Shown here one piece after another: positions 29,810 through 40,305 of a DNA stretch of 40,305 bases (within the stretch, counting starts at the first letter, position 1; each line of letters begins with the position of its first letter). The notes beneath the pieces are model-generated. The model was not told the origin of the DNA. It did no database searches and worked only from the letters and a program-made list of their open reading frames with translations. The stretch is from Saprospiraceae bacterium (GTDB taxonomy: Bacteria > Bacteroidota > Bacteroidia > Chitinophagales > Saprospiraceae), in contig JAQXAY010000184.1 of NCBI GenBank assembly GCA_029252685.1, positions 1-40,305 of the forward strand, read 5' to 3'. The position numbers and the translations under genes are program-made.

Positions 29810-32272
29810 ATGAATACCATAATTAAGAAAGTCATTCCTCATGCAGTTGCAATAGGAATATTCGCCATAATAGCAATTCTTACATTCAAGCCAACACTTG
29901 AAAGCCCTCCCAAAGAATTGTTTCAATCAGATAATATCCAAGCTGAAGGAAATTCAGCAGAGATCAAAAAATACGATAAAGAAACTGGAGATTGGCCTTT
30001 ATGGACCAATGGTGTCTTCGGAGGAATGCCTAGTTACCAAATCAATTACAAGGCAAAAAACCTTTTGAGCACAGTATACAAAGCATTTCTATTTGGAAAC
30101 GGTGCAAGGCCACCTGTCACTTCCTTGTTATTACTCATGTCTGGAATGTATCTCTTGCTTATACTAATTGGCCTAGATTGGAGGTTAAGCATTTGTTTGG
30201 CGGCAGGTTTTGGGTTTACGTCGAACTATATGGACCTATATCAAGCCGGCCACTCTACCAAATTGATAGCTATTGCCTATATGGCTCCAGCACTTGCCGG
30301 AATACTGCTAACCTACAGAGGAAAAATTCTTTTAGGGGGAAGTATGACCGCACTTTTCATGGGTCTTCAGCTTTTCGCCAATCACTTTCAAATAAGTTTT
30401 TACTTCTTTATCGTTTGCTTATTCATTGGAATAGTATACTTCATAGATGCTCTAAAAAACAAGGAACTTCCTTCTTTTGGAAAGCAAACGGGTGTATTGA
30501 TACTTGCTGGAGTTATGGCCCTTGGAGCAAACCTTGGAAAGATCTGGACAACGCAGGAATATGCTGAAGAAAGTATAAGAGGAAAATCTGAGCTTACCAG
30601 CGCTAGTAAAGATAGTGGTTCTTCCTCCTCCACAGATGGACTATCAAAAAGTTATGCTTTTGATTTTAGTATGGGCATAAACGAATCTATGACCTTTTTG
30701 ATCCCAGATTATATCGGTAGTAGTTCAGGAGCCTTGTTTTACAACAATAAAGAATCCGAGAGTTTCAAAGTACTTCGCGGTCTAAGGAATGCTCAATTGA
30801 TCGAACAGTTAAAGGGGGTTACTTCTCAATACTGGGGCAAGCAACGCTTTGTTGGTGGCCCTATATACATGGGCGCAATTATACTGTTTTTGGCTTTACT
30901 AGGAATGGCCTTATTAAAAGACAAAAATAAATACTGGCTCTTTGGAGCTGCTATACTTACAATGATAATGAGTTGGGGATCTAACTTTGAAGGTTTCAAC
31001 TACTTCCTCTTCGACAATGTCCCATTGATGAATAAGTTCAGAGCTGTTTCAATGGCACTGAATATTACTGCTTTCCTATTTCTAGTGTTAGCAGCAATGA
31101 CTTTAAAGGATTTCTTTTCAGATAAATTTAGTACGCAAGAAAAACAAAAAGCACTTTATATTTCTGGCGGAATCATGCTGTGTCTCCTACTTGGCGCTGT
31201 AATTCTCAGTGATCCAACAGGACTAAGTACTGACCTTAGAGGTCGCATTGCCGCAGCCATCGGAGAAGCTTCTACCAGCTCTATTGACCGTGCATTGATT
31301 GCTGATCGAAAAGCACTTATTACTGGAGATGCACTAAGAAGCTTTCTGCTTATAGGTTTGAGTTTTGGAGTTTTATTTTATGGCCTCAAAGCAAAAAATA
31401 CAAATCAATTATACCTAGGGATACTCGTTGCAGTTCTTGCAGGAGGAGATCTTATCAGTGTGGGATCAAGAGCAATAGACGAGGGCGACTTCCAAGCTCA
31501 ATCACTTCTAAGTGCTCAATTCTCCAACCCAAAACCGGTAGATCAAAAAATTCTTTCAGACAGTGATCCGCATTTCAGAGTTTTAGACCTTAGGTCTAAT
31601 CCATTCTCAAATGCCTCGGCATCCTATTTCCATCATTCTATGGGAGGATACCATGCTGCCAAAATGATGAAATATCAAGAAATGATTGAAACATACCTTA
31701 ATGATATACAGTCAAACCTTCATATTTATGGGATGTTCAATACGAAGTATATTATTCAGGATAACGAACAAGCAAGTCCAAACCGATATGCACTTGGTAA
31801 TGCTTGGTTTGTGAATCAAATCAGATCAGTTAACACCGCTGACGAGGAGCTGGCTGCATTAGCCGATTTTGAACCTGCATCGGAAGTAATTATTCAGAGT
31901 AAAAATGCTGCTGGCCTTGAAAATTGGCAACCACAAGCAGATCCATCTGCTACGATAAACTTAACAAGTTATCATCCAGATGAAATGGTATATAACTATA
32001 CTTCAAACTCCGATCAATTTGTGGTATTCTCTGAAATGTACTATCCTCCTTCAAAAGGTTGGAAATTGTACCTAGACGGTGCCCCATATGATGATTTTAG
32101 GCAAGTTAACTTCACGCTAAGAGGCGTTAAACTACCAAAAGGTCAAAACAGAGAACTTAAGATGGTCTTTAAACCCAAAGCATTCTACCTGGGAGAAACA
32201 ATCGCCATGATTTTCTCAATACTTATAATCGGTGGACTCGGAGCAGGACTATATTTTGAAAATAAAAAGTAA
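29810..32272 (+). CDS. YfhO-like polytopic membrane protein
   Basis: An 820-residue protein with an N-terminal helix, about a dozen hydrophobic segments to residue ~560 and a large C-terminal soluble part (about 570-790) followed by one last helix (FYLGETIAMIFSILIIGGLG). It has the YfhO-family pattern, including NGVFGGMPSYQI early on, DLYQAGHSTKLIAIAYMAPA, PLMNKFRAVSMAL and FSEMYYPPSKGWKLYLDG near the end. YfhO proteins resemble GT-C glycosyltransferases and in some bacteria help glycosylate wall polymers; the role here is not known. It has its own start after a 112-bp gap and a strong terminator. Confidence 0.85.
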   Translation: MNTIIKKVIPHAVAIGIFAIIAILTFKPTLESPPKELFQSDNIQAEGNSAEIKKYDKETGDWPLWTNGVFGGMPSYQINYKAKNLLSTVYKAFLFGNGARPPVTSLLLLMSGMYLLLILIGLDWRLSICLAAGFGFTSNYMDLYQAGHSTKLIAIAYMAPALAGILLTYRGKILLGGSMTALFMGLQLFANHFQISFYFFIVCLFIGIVYFIDALKNKELPSFGKQTGVLILAGVMALGANLGKIWTTQEYAEESIRGKSELTSASKDSGSSSSTDGLSKSYAFDFSMGINESMTFLIPDYIGSSSGALFYNNKESESFKVLRGLRNAQLIEQLKGVTSQYWGKQRFVGGPIYMGAIILFLALLGMALLKDKNKYWLFGAAILTMIMSWGSNFEGFNYFLFDNVPLMNKFRAVSMALNITAFLFLVLAAMTLKDFFSDKFSTQEKQKALYISGGIMLCLLLGAVILSDPTGLSTDLRGRIAAAIGEASTSSIDRALIADRKALITGDALRSFLLIGLSFGVLFYGLKAKNTNQLYLGILVAVLAGGDLISVGSRAIDEGDFQAQSLLSAQFSNPKPVDQKILSDSDPHFRVLDLRSNPFSNASASYFHHSMGGYHAAKMMKYQEMIETYLNDIQSNLHIYGMFNTKYIIQDNEQASPNRYALGNAWFVNQIRSVNTADEELAALADFEPASEVIIQSKNAAGLENWQPQADPSATINLTSYHPDEMVYNYTSNSDQFVVFSEMYYPPSKGWKLYLDGAPYDDFRQVNFTLRGVKLPKGQNRELKMVFKPKAFYLGETIAMIFSILIIGGLGAGLYFENKK

Positions 32273-32302
32273 AAAAAGGAGCAATATTGCTCCTTTTTTA
32301 CT
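32265..32302 (+). terminator. Rho-independent terminator after the YfhO-like gene
   Basis: AAAGT-A7-GGAGC pairs with GCTCC-T6-ACTTT around the loop AATATT, partly overlapping the stop codon. A second small inverted repeat AACCTT-TTT-AAGGTT (32309-32323) followed by A7 lies just after. Confidence 0.9.
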
Positions 32303-32381: not shown

Positions 32382-34004
32382 ATGAAAAATTACTTATTAC
32401 TATCCTTTTACTCAATCTTTTCCATAGCAACATTAAATGCACAGTTCATTCTAAATGGGAGTGCGCTAAAAATAGATGAAGATTGCTTCGAATTGACGCA
32501 AGATGCCTTGAACCAAAGTGGATCTGCATGGTTTGAAGACAAAATCAATCTCAACCAGTCCTTTGATGTTCGTATGAGTCTTAATTTTGGCTGTAAAGAT
32601 GATAATGGTGCTGATGGTATGGTCTTCATCCTACAACCCATAAGTACTTCTATCGGTAGTACAGGAAGTGGAATAGGATATGAAGGTATTAATCCATCTA
32701 TTGGAATAGAATTCGACACTTGGCAAAATGGCTCAAATAATGATCCAAGCTTTGATCACATCGGAATATTAAAGAATGGGATACCGAACCATAACAATAG
32801 CCTTTCCGGACCAATTCAGGCATCTATAAACTCCCTAAACATTGAGGATTGTAATGATCATTCTGTACGTATAAGCTGGGATGTAAATACACAAATGCTG
32901 AGTGTCTATTTTGATTGTCAACTTAGATTAAGCGTTGAGATCGACCTAATAAATGATATATTCAATGGTGACCCATCCGTATTCTGGGGTTTTTCTTCTG
33001 CTACTGGCGGCTTTGCAAACAAGCATTTATTGTGTTTCGAGCTGATTGAATTCAATCAACAACTAGAAAATTTTACACTTTGCCCAAATGGTGCCTACCC
33101 TATCGAAGGACCAATAGGAAATTACAGCTACGAATGGTCTCCTGCTGAAGGCTTAAGTGAAACTGATATACCAAATCCTATTGCTACTCCAACAGAAACA
33201 ACAACATACATTCTTAGCCTTACAGATGATTGTGGGTATATTTTTAATGATACAATTACAATCAGTGTGGGAGAAGATAGCAGTTTCGTTGACCTTGGGC
33301 CAGACTTGACAATTTGTGATCAAGCTAGCATTACACTAGACGCAACAACACCTAATGCTACCTATTTTTGGAATACTGGAAGTTCAGAACCTACTCAAGA
33401 AGCATTGGGCAGTGGCCTATATAGTGTCACTGTAGAGATCAATGAGGACTGCTTCGATTGGGATGAGGTCGCTTTGGAATTTAAAGAAACGCCTCAACTA
33501 CCAAGTATTGGAAACTTTGAGGACAAATGTATGGGTACAGACTTGGAAATTGATGGTACCAGCCCTACTCCAGCTGTTGAATATTTATGGAGCAACGGCT
33601 CTACCGATGCCCAAGCTTCAATAAATACCGGGGGATCTCAAAGCCTAAGTATAAGTAATGTATGCGGCACAAGCACCCTTGATTTCTCTATAGCTGAGAT
33701 AGATTGTTCTATTTACTATGCTCCAAATGTATTCTCGCCAAACAATGATGGAATTAATGACGTATTCACACTCTACAGTACGGTAATTGAAGAGATCATT
33801 TCACTATCTATTTTTGACCGCTGGGGTAACAAGGTTTTTGAACGTAAAAACTTCAAAGCATCCGAAGAATTATTAGGCTGGAACGGCACCCACAGCAAAA
33901 ATAACTGTGCACCAGGAACTTACGCATGGTCGGCAGAAATTCTATTTCAAAACAACCAAAAAAAGGTAAAAACGGGCTCAATCACTTTAATTCAGAATAA
34001 ATAG
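32382..34004 (+). CDS. Secreted L-type lectin-domain protein with T9SS type-B sorting domain
   Basis: A 540-residue protein. A signal peptide (MKNYLLLSFYSIFSIATLNA) precedes an L-type (legume-lectin-like) domain, about 22-225, with the metal-site pattern GADGMVFIL and IEFDTWQN....DPSFDHIGI. Next come a PKD-like domain with PNPIATPTETTTYIL (about 230-310), an Ig-like segment (LTICDQASITLDATTPNATY..., 320-385) and a short Ig-like domain. The last ~90 residues (from YYAPNVFSPNNDGINDVF through IFDRWGNKVFERKNF to GTYAWSAEILF) are a gliding-motility-associated C-terminal domain, a type IX secretion signal. It is thus exported to the surface or medium and may bind glycans. The next gene begins with the same lectin domain. 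Confidence 0.92.
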   Translation: MKNYLLLSFYSIFSIATLNAQFILNGSALKIDEDCFELTQDALNQSGSAWFEDKINLNQSFDVRMSLNFGCKDDNGADGMVFILQPISTSIGSTGSGIGYEGINPSIGIEFDTWQNGSNNDPSFDHIGILKNGIPNHNNSLSGPIQASINSLNIEDCNDHSVRISWDVNTQMLSVYFDCQLRLSVEIDLINDIFNGDPSVFWGFSSATGGFANKHLLCFELIEFNQQLENFTLCPNGAYPIEGPIGNYSYEWSPAEGLSETDIPNPIATPTETTTYILSLTDDCGYIFNDTITISVGEDSSFVDLGPDLTICDQASITLDATTPNATYFWNTGSSEPTQEALGSGLYSVTVEINEDCFDWDEVALEFKETPQLPSIGNFEDKCMGTDLEIDGTSPTPAVEYLWSNGSTDAQASINTGGSQSLSISNVCGTSTLDFSIAEIDCSIYYAPNVFSPNNDGINDVFTLYSTVIEEIISLSIFDRWGNKVFERKNFKASEELLGWNGTHSKNNCAPGTYAWSAEILFQNNQKKVKTGSITLIQNK

Positions 34005-34069: not shown

Positions 34070-37000
34070 ATGGGGTCTAGAAAACTAATATCAAGTGCTA
34101 TTTGCATTTTGTTTAGCTTAAATTCGTTTGCACAGCTGCAAACAATGGGAACTGCAACGGCTGATGCAACTAATACGTGTTTTACGTTAACACAAAATGT
34201 TGGTAATAGTGCAGGTGCAGTATGGGAACAAACCCCAATTGACCTAACTCAATCTTTTTCATTTGATTTAACTATGAATCTTGGTTGTAGTAATGGTGGA
34301 GCTGACGGTATAGTTTTTGCATTACATAACACACCTAATGCAATTGGAAACACTGGGGGGTCAATAGGATATAATACCTTAAATCCTTCTTTAGTTATTG
34401 AATTTGACACCTATCAAAACGGGGATAGAAACGACCCCACATATGACCATTTAGGATTAATGGTTGATGGAAACGGAAATCACAATGCAGACCTTGTAGG
34501 ACCTATACAAATCAGTGCCACATCAGGAAACGTTGAGGATTGTAATGATTATCCAGTCACTATAGACTGGAATGCTACTACGCAAGTTTATAGCGTTTAC
34601 TATGACTGTGTACTTCGTTTTTCCCATACAATAGATATTACAAATACTATTTTTGGTGGTAACCCGATTGTTTATTGGGGTTTTATCGCAACAACCGGTG
34701 GAGCAACCAATATCCAGTCTATTTGTTTTGATGTCCCTCCTCCTCCACCGATTACCTTGGCAGATGCTACCATATGTGCAGGTGATAGTTATCAATTAAA
34801 TGCACCAACTGGATTTGAGACCTATTTATGGACACCTTCGACGGGGCTTAATAACCCAAACATTGCTAACCCTATAGCTACACCAAATCTTACAACAACA
34901 TATACTCTTGTTGCTACTGAATTATGTGGAGGAACTTCTTCCGATTCAATGACACTAACAATACTAGATCTTCCAGGTGCAACAATTAGCGGAACAGGAA
35001 CAGTTTGTGATGAAGGTGGATCTGATGTGGATTTGACAGTTAATTTTACGGGAACCGCACCATGGACATTTACCTATACAGATGGTACTACTCCTGTTAC
35101 TATTACAACGAGTACAAATCCATACATAATAACTGTAACAGAGGCAGGAACATATACACTTGTTGATATTGAGTCTAGTGGATGTCTGGGAACAGTTAGT
35201 GGATCATCAGATGTGACAATAACAACGATTACAATATCAGATACTACAGCGGACCCTTTGTGTAATGGGGAAAGTAGTGGTTCAATAACAGTTACTGGGG
35301 AAGGAGGTACAGCGCCTTATACCTATAGCTGGTCAGATCCTGCATTGTCAGGAAATGTATTAACGGATCTTCCCGCAGGAACATATGATGTAACTGTCTT
35401 AGATGATAACGGCTGTGAAGAAATAAGTTCAATAACTTTAGTTGATCCACCTGCTATATCAGTAAGTGTTGGCACACCGACTCCAATTGATTGCATTAAC
35501 ACAACATCTTCAGTGGATGCAACAGGATCCGGTGGATCTCCTTCATACTCCTATAGTTGGAGTAACGGGGATACAGGATCTACATTAAATACTACAATAG
35601 CAGGAACATATACTGTTACGGTAACAGACACAAATGGTTGTACAGATGAAACAGATGTAACCATAGTCGACAATTCTTTGCCTCCACCAGATGCAACAAT
35701 AGCAGGCTCAGGAATTATATGTCCCGGAACTGGAACAACTGTTGATATAACTGTAACTTTTGTAGGAACAGGTCCTTGGACATTTACTTACACAGATGGA
35801 ACAACTCCAGTAACTATAACAACAAGTGACAATCCATATACAATAACAGTAGACGAACCGGGTACATATGTTTTAGTCGATGTGGAGGAAAGTGGATGTG
35901 TGGGTAATGTAAACGGTTCTGCAGATATTACGACTTCAATTGTTTCTATTGATGTGACTGAATCAGATCTTTTATGTAATGGAGATACAAATGGTAGCAT
36001 AACAGTGAACGGTACTGGTGGCTTATCACCATATACCTATACTTGGTCTGACCCGGCTCTCTCAGGCAATGTATTAACAAATTTAAGTGCAGGAACCTAT
36101 GATGTCACTGTTGCAGACTCAAATGGTTGTGAGGATGAAACCTCAATCACAATAGATGAACCTTCGGTTCTAGTGGCTTCTATGGGAAGTCCGACACTAA
36201 TAGATTGTAATAATGCAAGTGGTAGTGCTACAGTATCCGTTTCTGGAGGTACTGCTTCCTATTCTTATAGCTGGAGTAACGGCAATACTGGCGCAACTAT
36301 CTCAACGAATATAAGTGGCACATACACCGTAACTGTTACAGATACAAATGGTTGTACAGATGATGCAACGGTGACTATCAATGAGGATCTTGTAGCTCCA
36401 ACAGCTGTGGCAACCACCAATGGTGCAATCGATTGTATTAATACAAGCATAAGCCTATCAGGATCAGGATCAAGTACAGGAATAGAATTCACTTATCTAT
36501 GGACAACTAATGATGGCAATATCGATAGTGGAGAAATAACGCTTAACCCTGTTGTGAGTTCAGGAGGAACTTACACCCTTACCGTAACCAATACTAATAA
36601 TGGTTGTGAAGATATGATAAGTGTTACTGTTGTAGAAGAAACAGATCTACCTACGGCAGATGCAGGTACTGGTGATGAACTTACCTGTGACGTAACACAA
36701 GTTGTATTATTAGGTACAAACTCTGATACGGGACCTGATTACACCTATTCTTGGTCAACCACGGATGGAAATATTGTAAGTGGTGGTACAACATTGACAC
36801 CAGTCGTTGATGAACCTGGCACCTACACTATTACGGTAACAAATTCAACTAACGGTTGTACAGAAACAGATGATGTAATCGTAACCGAGGATGCGAATAC
36901 TCCTGTTGCAAATGCAGGACCTCCACAAACGATTAATTGTGATAACCCTACAGTTGAACTTGACGGAACAGGATCCTCTGGAGGATCAAATATGTTCTAT

Positions 37001-40000
37001 GAATGGACGACAAGCAATGGAAATATTATTAATGGAGCAAATACACTTACACCAACCGTAAATGCTGGTGGATCATATTTCTTGACGATAATGAATATCT
37101 CAAATGGTTGTGAGGCGAATTCGTCTGTATTGGTAGATGCTAACTTTGACCAACCAACTGCGGCAATTACTCCTCCTCCAACTATTGATTGTGATAATCC
37201 TATTATTCAATTGGATGGAAGTGCTTCTTCTCAAGGTCCGGATATTAGCTATTTTTGGTCAACTATTGGTGGAAATATTGTTTCTGGGCAAACGACAGAT
37301 TCACCATCGGTGGATGAAGATGGGACATATATTTTGACTGTATTTAATGACTTGAGTGAATGTATTGATGTATTCTCAGTGATAGTTACTGATCTTTCCA
37401 TTTTCCCAGACGCTGACGGTGTAGCTACGGATCTTATTGACTGTGTAACACCAACAGTGATGCTTGACGGAACAGGATCTAGTACAGGTTCAAGTTATAC
37501 GTATTTATGGACAACCAATAACGGGACCATTGTTTCTGATGAAACGACTTTGTTTCCGGTGGTAGGATCAGCGGGAGAGTATACACTGACAGTTCTTAAT
37601 ACAGTTAATAACTGTGCTACAGATGTGGAGGTGGATGTATTTGATTTTTTAGTAGATCCGACGATTAACATACCTGATCCTGGAAGTATTAATTGCGTAG
37701 ACTCACTTGTCGAAATCATAGCTACAGTATCGGATGCTAGTAACTTTGACTTTGAATGGACTACTCCAAATGGAAATTATGTAGCTGATACATTTACACT
37801 ATCTCCAATTGTCGATACTGAAGGATTCTATGAATTATCTGTGATCAATAATGTAAATGGTTGTTCTTCTTCTTTGACCATACCAGTTATTGAAGATTAT
37901 GATTATCCGATTGTGGATATGGGACCTCCTGGGGAATTGAATTGTTATGATCCTCAATACACTATTGATGCAACAAGTTCATCTGGTGGCCCTAATTTTG
38001 ATTATGATTGGGCTACTGCTGATGGTAATATTGTTTCTGGGAATGGCACTTTGGAGCCTGTCGTTGATGAAGGGGGTTTATATACCTTGATTATTACAAA
38101 CACCGACAATCAATGTAAAGATACTTCATCGATTCAGATAACAGTTAATCAATTTGACCCGATTGCAATTGCCGGTCCAGACGATCTTTTGGGTTGTTGG
38201 TCACCAACAATTATAATTGACGGTTCAGAATCAAGCTCAGGTCATTCTATAGTTTTCGAGTGGGTTACTGATGATGGTACTATAGTGGGAGCTACAAATA
38301 ATAGTATTATTGAAATCTCTGCAGGAGGTAACTTTACCCTAACTGTTACTGATACACTCAATGGCTGTAAAGATATAGATGAAGTTTTCGTTCTTGAAGA
38401 TTTTGTTGCTCCAGAGATTGGAACAGGACCTGGTGGAGAAATAAATTGTACTGATTTATCTATTCCACTTGATGGGACTGCAAGCGGAGATACACTAAAT
38501 TTGGTGTATGAGTGGCAATTCTACGGAACAGGTTCAATTTCTACTGGACAGGGGACTTTAAATGCCGTAGCTATTCAGCCAGATTTGTATTACCTATACG
38601 CGCAGGACACAATAAATGGTTGTGCTGCCATAGATTCTATTCTGGTTACTAAAGATGATAATGTTCCCTCTATAGACATGTCTGCATTGGATACACTTGA
38701 TTGTGTAACTAGCTCTTTAACAATTGACGCTTCTGCTTCTTCGCAGGGTGGTGACATTGTTTTTGAATGGTCTACCGTAGATGGGGAGATTGAATCTGGT
38801 GCTACAACACTTACTCCTGTCATTAGTAGTCCTGGATCTTATGAGTTGATTCTAAGCGATACAGTCAATAATTGTGTGACGAATTCAGTTTTAAGCATTG
38901 AACCAGATACTATTCATCCTTCGGTAAGTTTACTTAGCCCTGGGGTGATAAATTGTAATAATGCAACTGTGCCAGTTGAAGCTTCTATTGGTGCCGTAGG
39001 TTCAGACTATACAATAAACTGGACTAGTCCTGATGGTGGTGTATTTAACAGTGGACAATCAGATTTAATTATTGACGTTTCTGCTCAGGGAACCTTTGAT
39101 TTTACTATCACTAATACAATAAACGGTTGTCTAACTGATGCAAGTATTGGGGTTACAGAGGATTTAGATTTCCCTCAACTATCCGGAGCATTCCCAGATA
39201 CAATCACCTGTGATAATCCTAATATTCTGCTTGAGGCCACTGTAGATACACAAGGCGATCCATATACATTCAATTGGACCACAGATTCTTCAGGCTCATT
39301 AGACAACAATATATTCACCTTATCTCCGATAGTAAGTGGCGCATCTATTTATACACTCTACGTTCAGAATGACATCAATGGCTGTGCTGAATCAATTGAT
39401 ATATCCGTAGGACAAAATGTTGAATTCCCGGATGCATTAGCTCAAGTGAGTGCATTCTTAAGCTGTGATAGCCTAGACCTTCAAATCGACGGAACTTCAA
39501 GTTCTGCCGGATCAAACTATCTATACCTTTGGACTACATTGAATGGTAATATTCTTTCAGGAAGTAATGGTTTGACCCCAATGGTTGATGAACCGGGTAT
39601 ATATACTCTGATCGTAGAGAATACGGACAACAACTGTAAATCAGATGTAGATGTTGAGGTTACTCAAAACCTTACAGAACCTCCCTTGGCAATTGCCCTG
39701 CCGGACACGCTGACATGTGGGGTTCTCGAAATTGATATATTTGGAGATGCGGGAATAGATTCATTAGGGACTTATGTATATGCATGGAATACAACAGGTG
39801 GAAATATAACATCATCTGCAAGTGCACAAAACATTTCAGCTAGTTTACCTGGATCCTATACTTTCGAAGTATTGGATACGTACAATGGCTGTTCAACATT
39901 TATTAATACGCAAGTTATCCAGGACATTGTGATTCCTAATGCAGATGCAGGAGCTGCTCAAATCTTAAATTGTATCGTGCTTGATCAACAGCTCGATGCT

Positions 40001-40305
40001 TCTGACTCATCTACAGGATCTATTTACGAGTATACTTGGAGTACTACAGACGGTTCTATTGTAGGACCTTCAAATGTTATTAATCCGGTTATTGATGAAC
40101 CTGGAACATACACAGTTACAGTGTTCAATGCTATAAATGAATGTTCAAATACTTCTGACATTACTATTTCTCAGGATATTGTTGATCCGGACGTTGAGGC
40201 CGGCATTACAGATACTCTAGATTGTTATTCAGCAGCTCTAAACTTAAATGGGCTTGGATCAAGTACTGGAGCTAACTTTGCGTATAACTGGATCAGTGTT
40301 GATGG
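34070..40305 (+). CDS. Giant lectin/SprB-repeat/Ig-repeat surface adhesin (3' end outside window)
   Basis: Starting at ATG 34070 the frame is open for 2078 codons to the window end with no stop, so the gene is cut. A signal peptide (MGSRKLISSAICILFSLNSFAQ) precedes an L-type lectin domain (about 24-222; ADGIVFAL, IEFDTYQN....DPTYDHLGL), then a PKD-like domain with NPIATPNLTTTYTL. Two copies of a 238-residue cassette follow, each with a TFTYTDGTTPVTITTS domain, a SprB-like repeat (LCNG...GSITV, PYTYSWSDPALSGNVLT, AGTYDVTV) and a related repeat (YSWSNG, GTYTVTVTDTNGCTD). At least sixteen Ig/PKD-like repeats of 83-85 residues fill the rest. By analogy with SprB and similar proteins it is probably a T9SS-exported adhesin; a C-terminal sorting domain is expected beyond the window. 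Confidence 0.9.
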   Translation, partial: MGSRKLISSAICILFSLNSFAQLQTMGTATADATNTCFTLTQNVGNSAGAVWEQTPIDLTQSFSFDLTMNLGCSNGGADGIVFALHNTPNAIGNTGGSIGYNTLNPSLVIEFDTYQNGDRNDPTYDHLGLMVDGNGNHNADLVGPIQISATSGNVEDCNDYPVTIDWNATTQVYSVYYDCVLRFSHTIDITNTIFGGNPIVYWGFIATTGGATNIQSICFDVPPPPPITLADATICAGDSYQLNAPTGFETYLWTPSTGLNNPNIANPIATPNLTTTYTLVATELCGGTSSDSMTLTILDLPGATISGTGTVCDEGGSDVDLTVNFTGTAPWTFTYTDGTTPVTITTSTNPYIITVTEAGTYTLVDIESSGCLGTVSGSSDVTITTITISDTTADPLCNGESSGSITVTGEGGTAPYTYSWSDPALSGNVLTDLPAGTYDVTVLDDNGCEEISSITLVDPPAISVSVGTPTPIDCINTTSSVDATGSGGSPSYSYSWSNGDTGSTLNTTIAGTYTVTVTDTNGCTDETDVTIVDNSLPPPDATIAGSGIICPGTGTTVDITVTFVGTGPWTFTYTDGTTPVTITTSDNPYTITVDEPGTYVLVDVEESGCVGNVNGSADITTSIVSIDVTESDLLCNGDTNGSITVNGTGGLSPYTYTWSDPALSGNVLTNLSAGTYDVTVADSNGCEDETSITIDEPSVLVASMGSPTLIDCNNASGSATVSVSGGTASYSYSWSNGNTGATISTNISGTYTVTVTDTNGCTDDATVTINEDLVAPTAVATTNGAIDCINTSISLSGSGSSTGIEFTYLWTTNDGNIDSGEITLNPVVSSGGTYTLTVTNTNNGCEDMISVTVVEETDLPTADAGTGDELTCDVTQVVLLGTNSDTGPDYTYSWSTTDGNIVSGGTTLTPVVDEPGTYTITVTNSTNGCTETDDVIVTEDANTPVANAGPPQTINCDNPTVELDGTGSSGGSNMFYEWTTSNGNIINGANTLTPTVNAGGSYFLTIMNISNGCEANSSVLVDANFDQPTAAITPPPTIDCDNPIIQLDGSASSQGPDISYFWSTIGGNIVSGQTTDSPSVDEDGTYILTVFNDLSECIDVFSVIVTDLSIFPDADGVATDLIDCVTPTVMLDGTGSSTGSSYTYLWTTNNGTIVSDETTLFPVVGSAGEYTLTVLNTVNNCATDVEVDVFDFLVDPTINIPDPGSINCVDSLVEIIATVSDASNFDFEWTTPNGNYVADTFTLSPIVDTEGFYELSVINNVNGCSSSLTIPVIEDYDYPIVDMGPPGELNCYDPQYTIDATSSSGGPNFDYDWATADGNIVSGNGTLEPVVDEGGLYTLIITNTDNQCKDTSSIQITVNQFDPIAIAGPDDLLGCWSPTIIIDGSESSSGHSIVFEWVTDDGTIVGATNNSIIEISAGGNFTLTVTDTLNGCKDIDEVFVLEDFVAPEIGTGPGGEINCTDLSIPLDGTASGDTLNLVYEWQFYGTGSISTGQGTLNAVAIQPDLYYLYAQDTINGCAAIDSILVTKDDNVPSIDMSALDTLDCVTSSLTIDASASSQGGDIVFEWSTVDGEIESGATTLTPVISSPGSYELILSDTVNNCVTNSVLSIEPDTIHPSVSLLSPGVINCNNATVPVEASIGAVGSDYTINWTSPDGGVFNSGQSDLIIDVSAQGTFDFTITNTINGCLTDASIGVTEDLDFPQLSGAFPDTITCDNPNILLEATVDTQGDPYTFNWTTDSSGSLDNNIFTLSPIVSGASIYTLYVQNDINGCAESIDISVGQNVEFPDALAQVSAFLSCDSLDLQIDGTSSSAGSNYLYLWTTLNGNILSGSNGLTPMVDEPGIYTLIVENTDNNCKSDVDVEVTQNLTEPPLAIALPDTLTCGVLEIDIFGDAGIDSLGTYVYAWNTTGGNITSSASAQNISASLPGSYTFEVLDTYNGCSTFINTQVIQDIVIPNADAGAAQILNCIVLDQQLDASDSSTGSIYEYTWSTTDGSIVGPSNVINPVIDEPGTYTVTVFNAINECSNTSDITISQDIVDPDVEAGITDTLDCYSAALNLNGLGSSTGANFAYNWISVD
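34979..36400 (+). repeat. Two tandem ~714-bp SprB-type cassettes
   Basis: The first unit begins at GCAACAATTAGCGG (34979) and the second at GCAACAATAGCAGG (35693), 714 bp or 238 residues later. Shared stretches include TTTACnTAnACAGATGG, CTATGATGTnACTGT and ACAAATGGTTGTACAGATGA. The second copy runs to about 36400. The unit is in-frame and lies within the giant adhesin gene. Confidence 0.85.
36401..40305 (+). repeat. Array of at least sixteen ~252-bp Ig/PKD-like coding repeats
   Basis: The first Cys codon of each unit ((D/N)C or similar) falls at 36434, 36686, 36938, 37190, 37442, 37694, 37943, 38195, 38447, 38702, 38954, 39209, 39464, 39716, 39971 and 40223: spacings of 249, 252 or 255 bp. 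The protein pattern is C...LDGTxSSxG...YxWxTxxGxIxSG..TLxPxVxxxGxYTLTVxNTxNGC. Units differ a lot in sequence, so the array is old or diversified. The last unit is cut by the window end. Confidence 0.9.

Follow-up and report, generated by a model that had tools for sequence, protein, structure and literature searches.

A lectin-headed giant protein of a Saprospiraceae bacterium, probably a fibrillar adhesin exported by type IX secretion

The giant frame and its continuation on a second contig

The window analysed here, a stretch of 40,305 nucleotides from a Saprospiraceae bacterium, ends inside a giant open reading frame, which raises the question of what protein this frame encodes when it is followed to its end. 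On the plus strand the frame occupies 34070-40303 and is still open at the window end after 2,078 codons, as the initial annotation had described and as the ORF call and the contig end confirm. The window is the entire contig (C285) of an assembly of 297 contigs and 3.44 Mb, and therefore the truncation of the giant gene is the end of the contig. The terminal 119 bases of the frame recur without a mismatch at the end of contig C148 of the same genome (40187..40305 on the plus strand against L006:14195-14077 on the minus strand, by contig comparison), and this overlap is the sole one of its kind among the own-genome contigs compared. When the two contigs are joined on this overlap of contig ends, not on a spanning read, the frame meets no stop or frameshift soon after 40305, goes on for 638 codons beyond the window into a TIGR04131/CHU_C sorting domain and stops at L006:12162. 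The joined protein has 2,716 aa, with a computed mass of 285 kDa and a pI of 4.05.

The assembly is fragmented, several paralogues are present and the giant gene is split between two contigs, all of which could favour an artefact in which the head, stalk or tail of paralogues have been misjoined. Such a misjoin is unlikely, and indeed very improbable in our estimate, because the own-genome contigs compared, paralogous ones included, contain no identical run of at least 25 bases in common with the ORF besides the 119-base overlap, and because the protein of a paralogue on contig C203 is unbroken at the matching join position and keeps its register across the join. The head of the giant is also syntenic in G002, a genome of the same genus.

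Domain organization

The giant begins with a predicted Sec-type signal peptide, MGSRKLISSAICILFSLNSFA followed by Q (34070..34132, plus strand, from the translation; residues 1-21), and this start is backed by the syntenic orthologue in G002, which begins MGARKLILGAICIL. Gln after the cleavage site is the Bacteroidetes Q-rule (PMC5837995), to which the leader conforms. The following segment is the L-type (legume) lectin head (34133..34732, plus strand; residues 22-221). It matches the Pfam family PF18483 (Lectin_L-type_dom) with an E-value of 1.7e-44 and 152.7 bits against a curated cut-off of 78.3, and the PDB entry 7elv with an E-value of 7e-29. A GADG motif lies at residues 77-80, and the metal-site residues E111, D113, Y115, N117, D122 and H127 all stand at ConA spacing in a gap-free match to ConA, whose own metal site consists of E8, D10, Y12, N14, D19 and H24. 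The metal site, intact as judged by these residues, supports sugar binding without proving it. Among the 37 genomes searched, 20 have PF18483 above cut-off, while a plasmid search for the lectin head returned distant lectins only, with less than 60% identity, and a literature search for an L-type lectin with type IX secretion found no paper. An AlphaFold2 model of the lectin head made from two sequences reached a mean pLDDT of 40.6 and was discarded.

Behind the head comes a PKD-like/Ig-like domain that is common to the adjacent short lectin (34775..34948, plus strand; residues 236-293 by the iterated repeat profile), and then two cassettes, each composed of an Ig-like and two SprB-type domains (35006..36388, plus strand; residues 313-773, from four stretches of PF13573 and the repeat profile). 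The rest of the window (36428..40303, plus strand) is filled with Ig-like repeats of about 84 aa, of which the iterated profile finds 1-15 whole and 16 in part. Repeats 17-20, a SprB-like domain, an Ig-like domain and the CHU_C tail lie on C148 (L006:14076-12162, minus strand; repeat profile in the joined frame). In the joined protein, the 20 Ig-like repeats occupy residues 787-2455 in steps of 83-85 aa, with two Cys per repeat about 57 apart (Cys-57-Cys), and are succeeded by the SprB-like domain at 2469-2533, the Ig-like domain at 2551-2616 and the tail at 2617-2716. A Pfam scan matches several PKD/Ig-like families in the ORF, and an AlphaFold2 model of a two-repeat stalk unit is all beta with a mean pLDDT of 95.6. 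Judged from its sequence, the giant contains about 29 small domains of beta-sandwich type strung in a row. A chance origin of the domain calls is excluded by the profile scores together with length-wide conservation in orthologues and paralogues. On the whole, the architecture proposed in the initial annotation stands: the lectin domain, the SprB cassettes and the Ig-like stalk are recovered by Pfam and the iterated profile, the signal peptide agrees with the leader and its G002 orthologue, the PKD-like domain is now placed, and the count of at least 16 Ig-like repeats is essentially right.

Sorting tail and secretion machinery

The initial annotation had proposed to look for a sorting domain beyond 40305, and one is found on C148 at the extreme C terminus of the joined protein. 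It is of T9SS type B, with 49 bits for CHU_C (cut-off 27) and 36.8 bits for TIGR04131, barely over the cut-off of 35; together with the lectin head at the other end, it bears out the description of a lectin-tipped T9SS-type giant. Profile searches of its own genome find full-length SprA, GldM and 13 PorP/SprF proteins, as well as a GldJ-like protein whose best match of 380 bits is below the 458-bit cut-off. The same genome has 36 TIGR04131 matches (31 over cut-off), so that, with 13 PorP/SprF, many type B substrates must do without a dedicated shuttle.

C285 and C148 carry no PorP/SprF gene, so that the giant has none as its neighbour. An adjacent PorP/SprF is usual for type B substrates yet not obligatory, and orphans exist; in F. 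johnsoniae three orphan type B substrates use one orphan shuttle, and a PorP/SprF shuttle can serve a highly similar non-cognate tail (PMC12618676). Since such sharing and non-cognate service are known in F. johnsoniae, one shuttle common to the stalk family of the giant is plausible by analogy. Also on L006 (3-8498, minus strand), we observed two tandem reprolysin-like metallopeptidases of 1,388 and 1,367+ aa, which carry P-domain, SprB and PKD domains; a type A tail closes the first of them.

Different heads on one stalk family

What deserves notice in this study is that heads have been exchanged while a single stalk and tail were conserved. The C203 paralogue, whose contig ends near the 5' end of the gene, has at least 2,883 aa, and from about residue 300 of the giant to the end the two proteins align gap-free over about 2,417 residues with 75% identity and a constant offset of 176 residues. 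Its head is a choice-of-anchor L domain (NF038133, E 1.6e-67), unrelated to the lectin. The tail of the giant is 86% identical to that of C203 (last 100 residues), 58% to that of C113 and 51% to that of C17. A further paralogue, on contig C2, has a stalk about 50% identical to that of the giant within the repeat region and bears a third head, which matches no NCBIfam family and which we read by eye in the translation as P-domain-like. In genome G001 there are two copies, and a four-point argument from pairwise identities, not a tree, puts C1 with C203 and C185 with the giant gene; C185 is the orthologue of the giant by its stalk, the part compared.

Most blocks compared between the giant and C203 have a dS of about 1 or more, which makes the duplication old; dN (mostly 0.05-0.3) is well below dS, which places the stalk under purifying selection. 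No block has a low dS, and a recent gene conversion between the two stalks was therefore rejected. The idea that the gap-free stalk is an exact-length ruler is weakened, since alignments of ordinary genes from both genomes likewise lack gaps, at 70-91% identity.

The paralogues might form one interchangeable-head system, in which a stalk and tail of fixed length would share an orphan shuttle, perhaps bundle in the manner of GhpA (see below), and receive lectin, choice-of-anchor L or P-domain-like heads by recombination. We hold this to be improbable; if true, head swaps in the paralogue family would alter what the cell catches. The giant and C203 are in any case a clean natural pair, with a common stalk and tail of about 2,400 residues and different heads, suited to asking whether head, stalk or tail sets target, reach and surface placement.

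The adjacent short lectin and the locus

Directly upstream of the giant, 65 bases apart, lies a gene for a short lectin protein of 540 aa (32382..34004, plus strand), for which profile matches give an L-type lectin, a PKD-like domain and CHU_C. The heads of the two window lectins are 44-45% identical and their tails only 33%, as against 86% for the C203 tail; the giant therefore has the head type of its neighbour, and a stalk and tail in common with genes elsewhere. We considered whether the head of the giant had been copied recently from the short lectin and rejected this at 44-45% identity, the two being non-sisters in the head tree. The genes further upstream are syntenic in G002, where the head of the giant comes directly after orf820 (84% identity over 167 aa, up to the contig end). 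The short lectin gene is absent from this syntenic locus, L249 (G002:C4), so that either one lineage gained it or the other lost it. The window locus was not found in the G001 assembly, where its neighbour orf820 and the flippase are unmatched. Upstream of the lectin pair, a 12-bp inverted repeat with A/T runs resembles a terminator (32272..32299, no strand assigned), with weak support, as one such repeat was found against 1.2 expected by chance. Rfam and PADLOC searches gave no matches.

Relatives in other genomes and known systems

The initial annotation could not match the domain order to a described protein. This is not upheld, as a lectin, a long region and a type B tail are combined in at least five related genomes: G003:C112 (2,166 aa), G014 (1,287), G009 (1,590), G044 (1,408) and G043 (1,771). 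In these long relatives the lectin is near the N terminus and the tail is of CHU_C type, by Pfam for four of the five. They differ from the giant in repeat number and kind: between lectin and tail, G003 has PKD/Ig-like repeats and G044 SprB repeats, while G014 and G009 have no repeat family over threshold. For the stalk of the giant, the C203/G001 family is a closer relative than these long lectin proteins. Lectin and CHU_C-type tail also occur together in short proteins of about 540-700 aa. The long forms are not one clade in the head tree, which needs five changes, at least two of them forced by supported branches; thus the joining of lectin heads to long regions, or the loss of stalks, probably happened more than once.

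All three marks of a fibrillar adhesin-like protein, namely an adhesive domain, repeated stalk domains and a surface anchor, are present in the giant by sequence. The CHU_C-anchored fibrillar adhesin-like proteins of Bacteroidetes (PMC8286594) have an adhesive domain, a repeated beta-sandwich stalk and CHU_C, as the giant does; it fits this described class as a good example and is not new in kind. In the passages of PMC8286594 consulted, no stalk of GhpA type topped by an L-type lectin was found. Two well-known proteins are also partly alike. The SprB of F. johnsoniae has SprB repeats and a type B tail like the giant, but with an adjacent sprF (PMC12618676), which the giant lacks. RemA is likewise a T9SS adhesin bearing a lectin; however, its tail is of type A (PMC10202324), and it binds rhamnose and galactose (PMC11205867), whereas the head of the giant is PF18483.

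Function and alternative explanations

We consider it probable that the giant is an exported fibrillar adhesin, a type B substrate of T9SS with a glycan-binding tip, with sugar binding and surface display inferred from its domains. It would then stand as a type B T9SS substrate with a lectin head that is seen at full length. The protein would cross the inner membrane via Sec and exit through SprA, and its tail, as that of an orphan substrate, would keep it at the surface via one of the 13 PorP/SprF encoded elsewhere. The Ig-like stalk, likely with a disulfide in each repeat, would keep the lectin at a distance of at least tens of nanometres from the cell, where the tip may bind glycans of algae, particles, neighbouring cells or prey. 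Because the stalk and tail family is common and the heads differ, the head type would set the target, and the stalk/tail module the reach and export.

Besides this fibrillar adhesin, the giant may be a mobile, SprB-like gliding adhesin carried on a GldLM-driven track while its lectin grips the substrate. This is possible though rather unlikely. Its SprB repeats and type B tail, and the presence of SprA, GldM and a GldJ-like protein, point in that direction, and the tails of SprB and some other type B substrates do send cargo to the gliding track (PMC12618676). Other type B tails, however, anchor cargo statically, also in the case of non-gliding adhesins (PMC12618676), and the genome has about 30 type B tails, which cannot all be taken for those of gliding adhesins; moreover the giant is without an adjacent sprF, and the GldJ-like match falls short of its cut-off.

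GhpA of Aureispira offers another comparison: among solved structures it is the one nearest to the stalk, with homologous Ig-like repeats (PDB 9flp and fragments). By profile the stalk matches GhpA with an E-value of 3e-63 in 11 stretches, and by fold its model has the GhpA fragments 9fls and 9g8b as top matches (TM 0.60 and 0.55). The stalk family of the giant is thereby linked to a T9SS-exported filament (PMC11205867) with solved structures, and several copies of the giant could be imagined to bundle into a prey-catching, grappling-hook-like fibre. This we regard as quite improbable. The repeat fold is generic, with KIAA0319L also matching by sequence and titin by fold; GhpA, which is heptameric, has 5,898 aa (PMC13319060), so that the giant is half its length; a single-sequence search of the PDB with the terminal 676 aa of the giant gave no match, GhpA included; and the T6SS sheath family PF05943 was not found in the incomplete assembly to which the giant belongs.

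Other giant frames

Giant frames were also observed at further loci. At L187/L188 (G000:C48:22000-48999) there are four successive giant frames of 1,481, 2,104, 2,348 and 2,342+ aa whose ends match TIGR04131, in two cases below cut-off, and at L190 (G000:C236) two neighbouring giants of 2,504 and 2,466 aa have type B tails. At L179/L180, G001:C302 is a tandem cluster of giants, where a protein of 4,374 aa, whose head is 45% similar to that of G001:C164 (choice-of-anchor L), stands immediately behind the tail of a further giant and is followed by a frame of 1,728 aa with a similar kind of tail.
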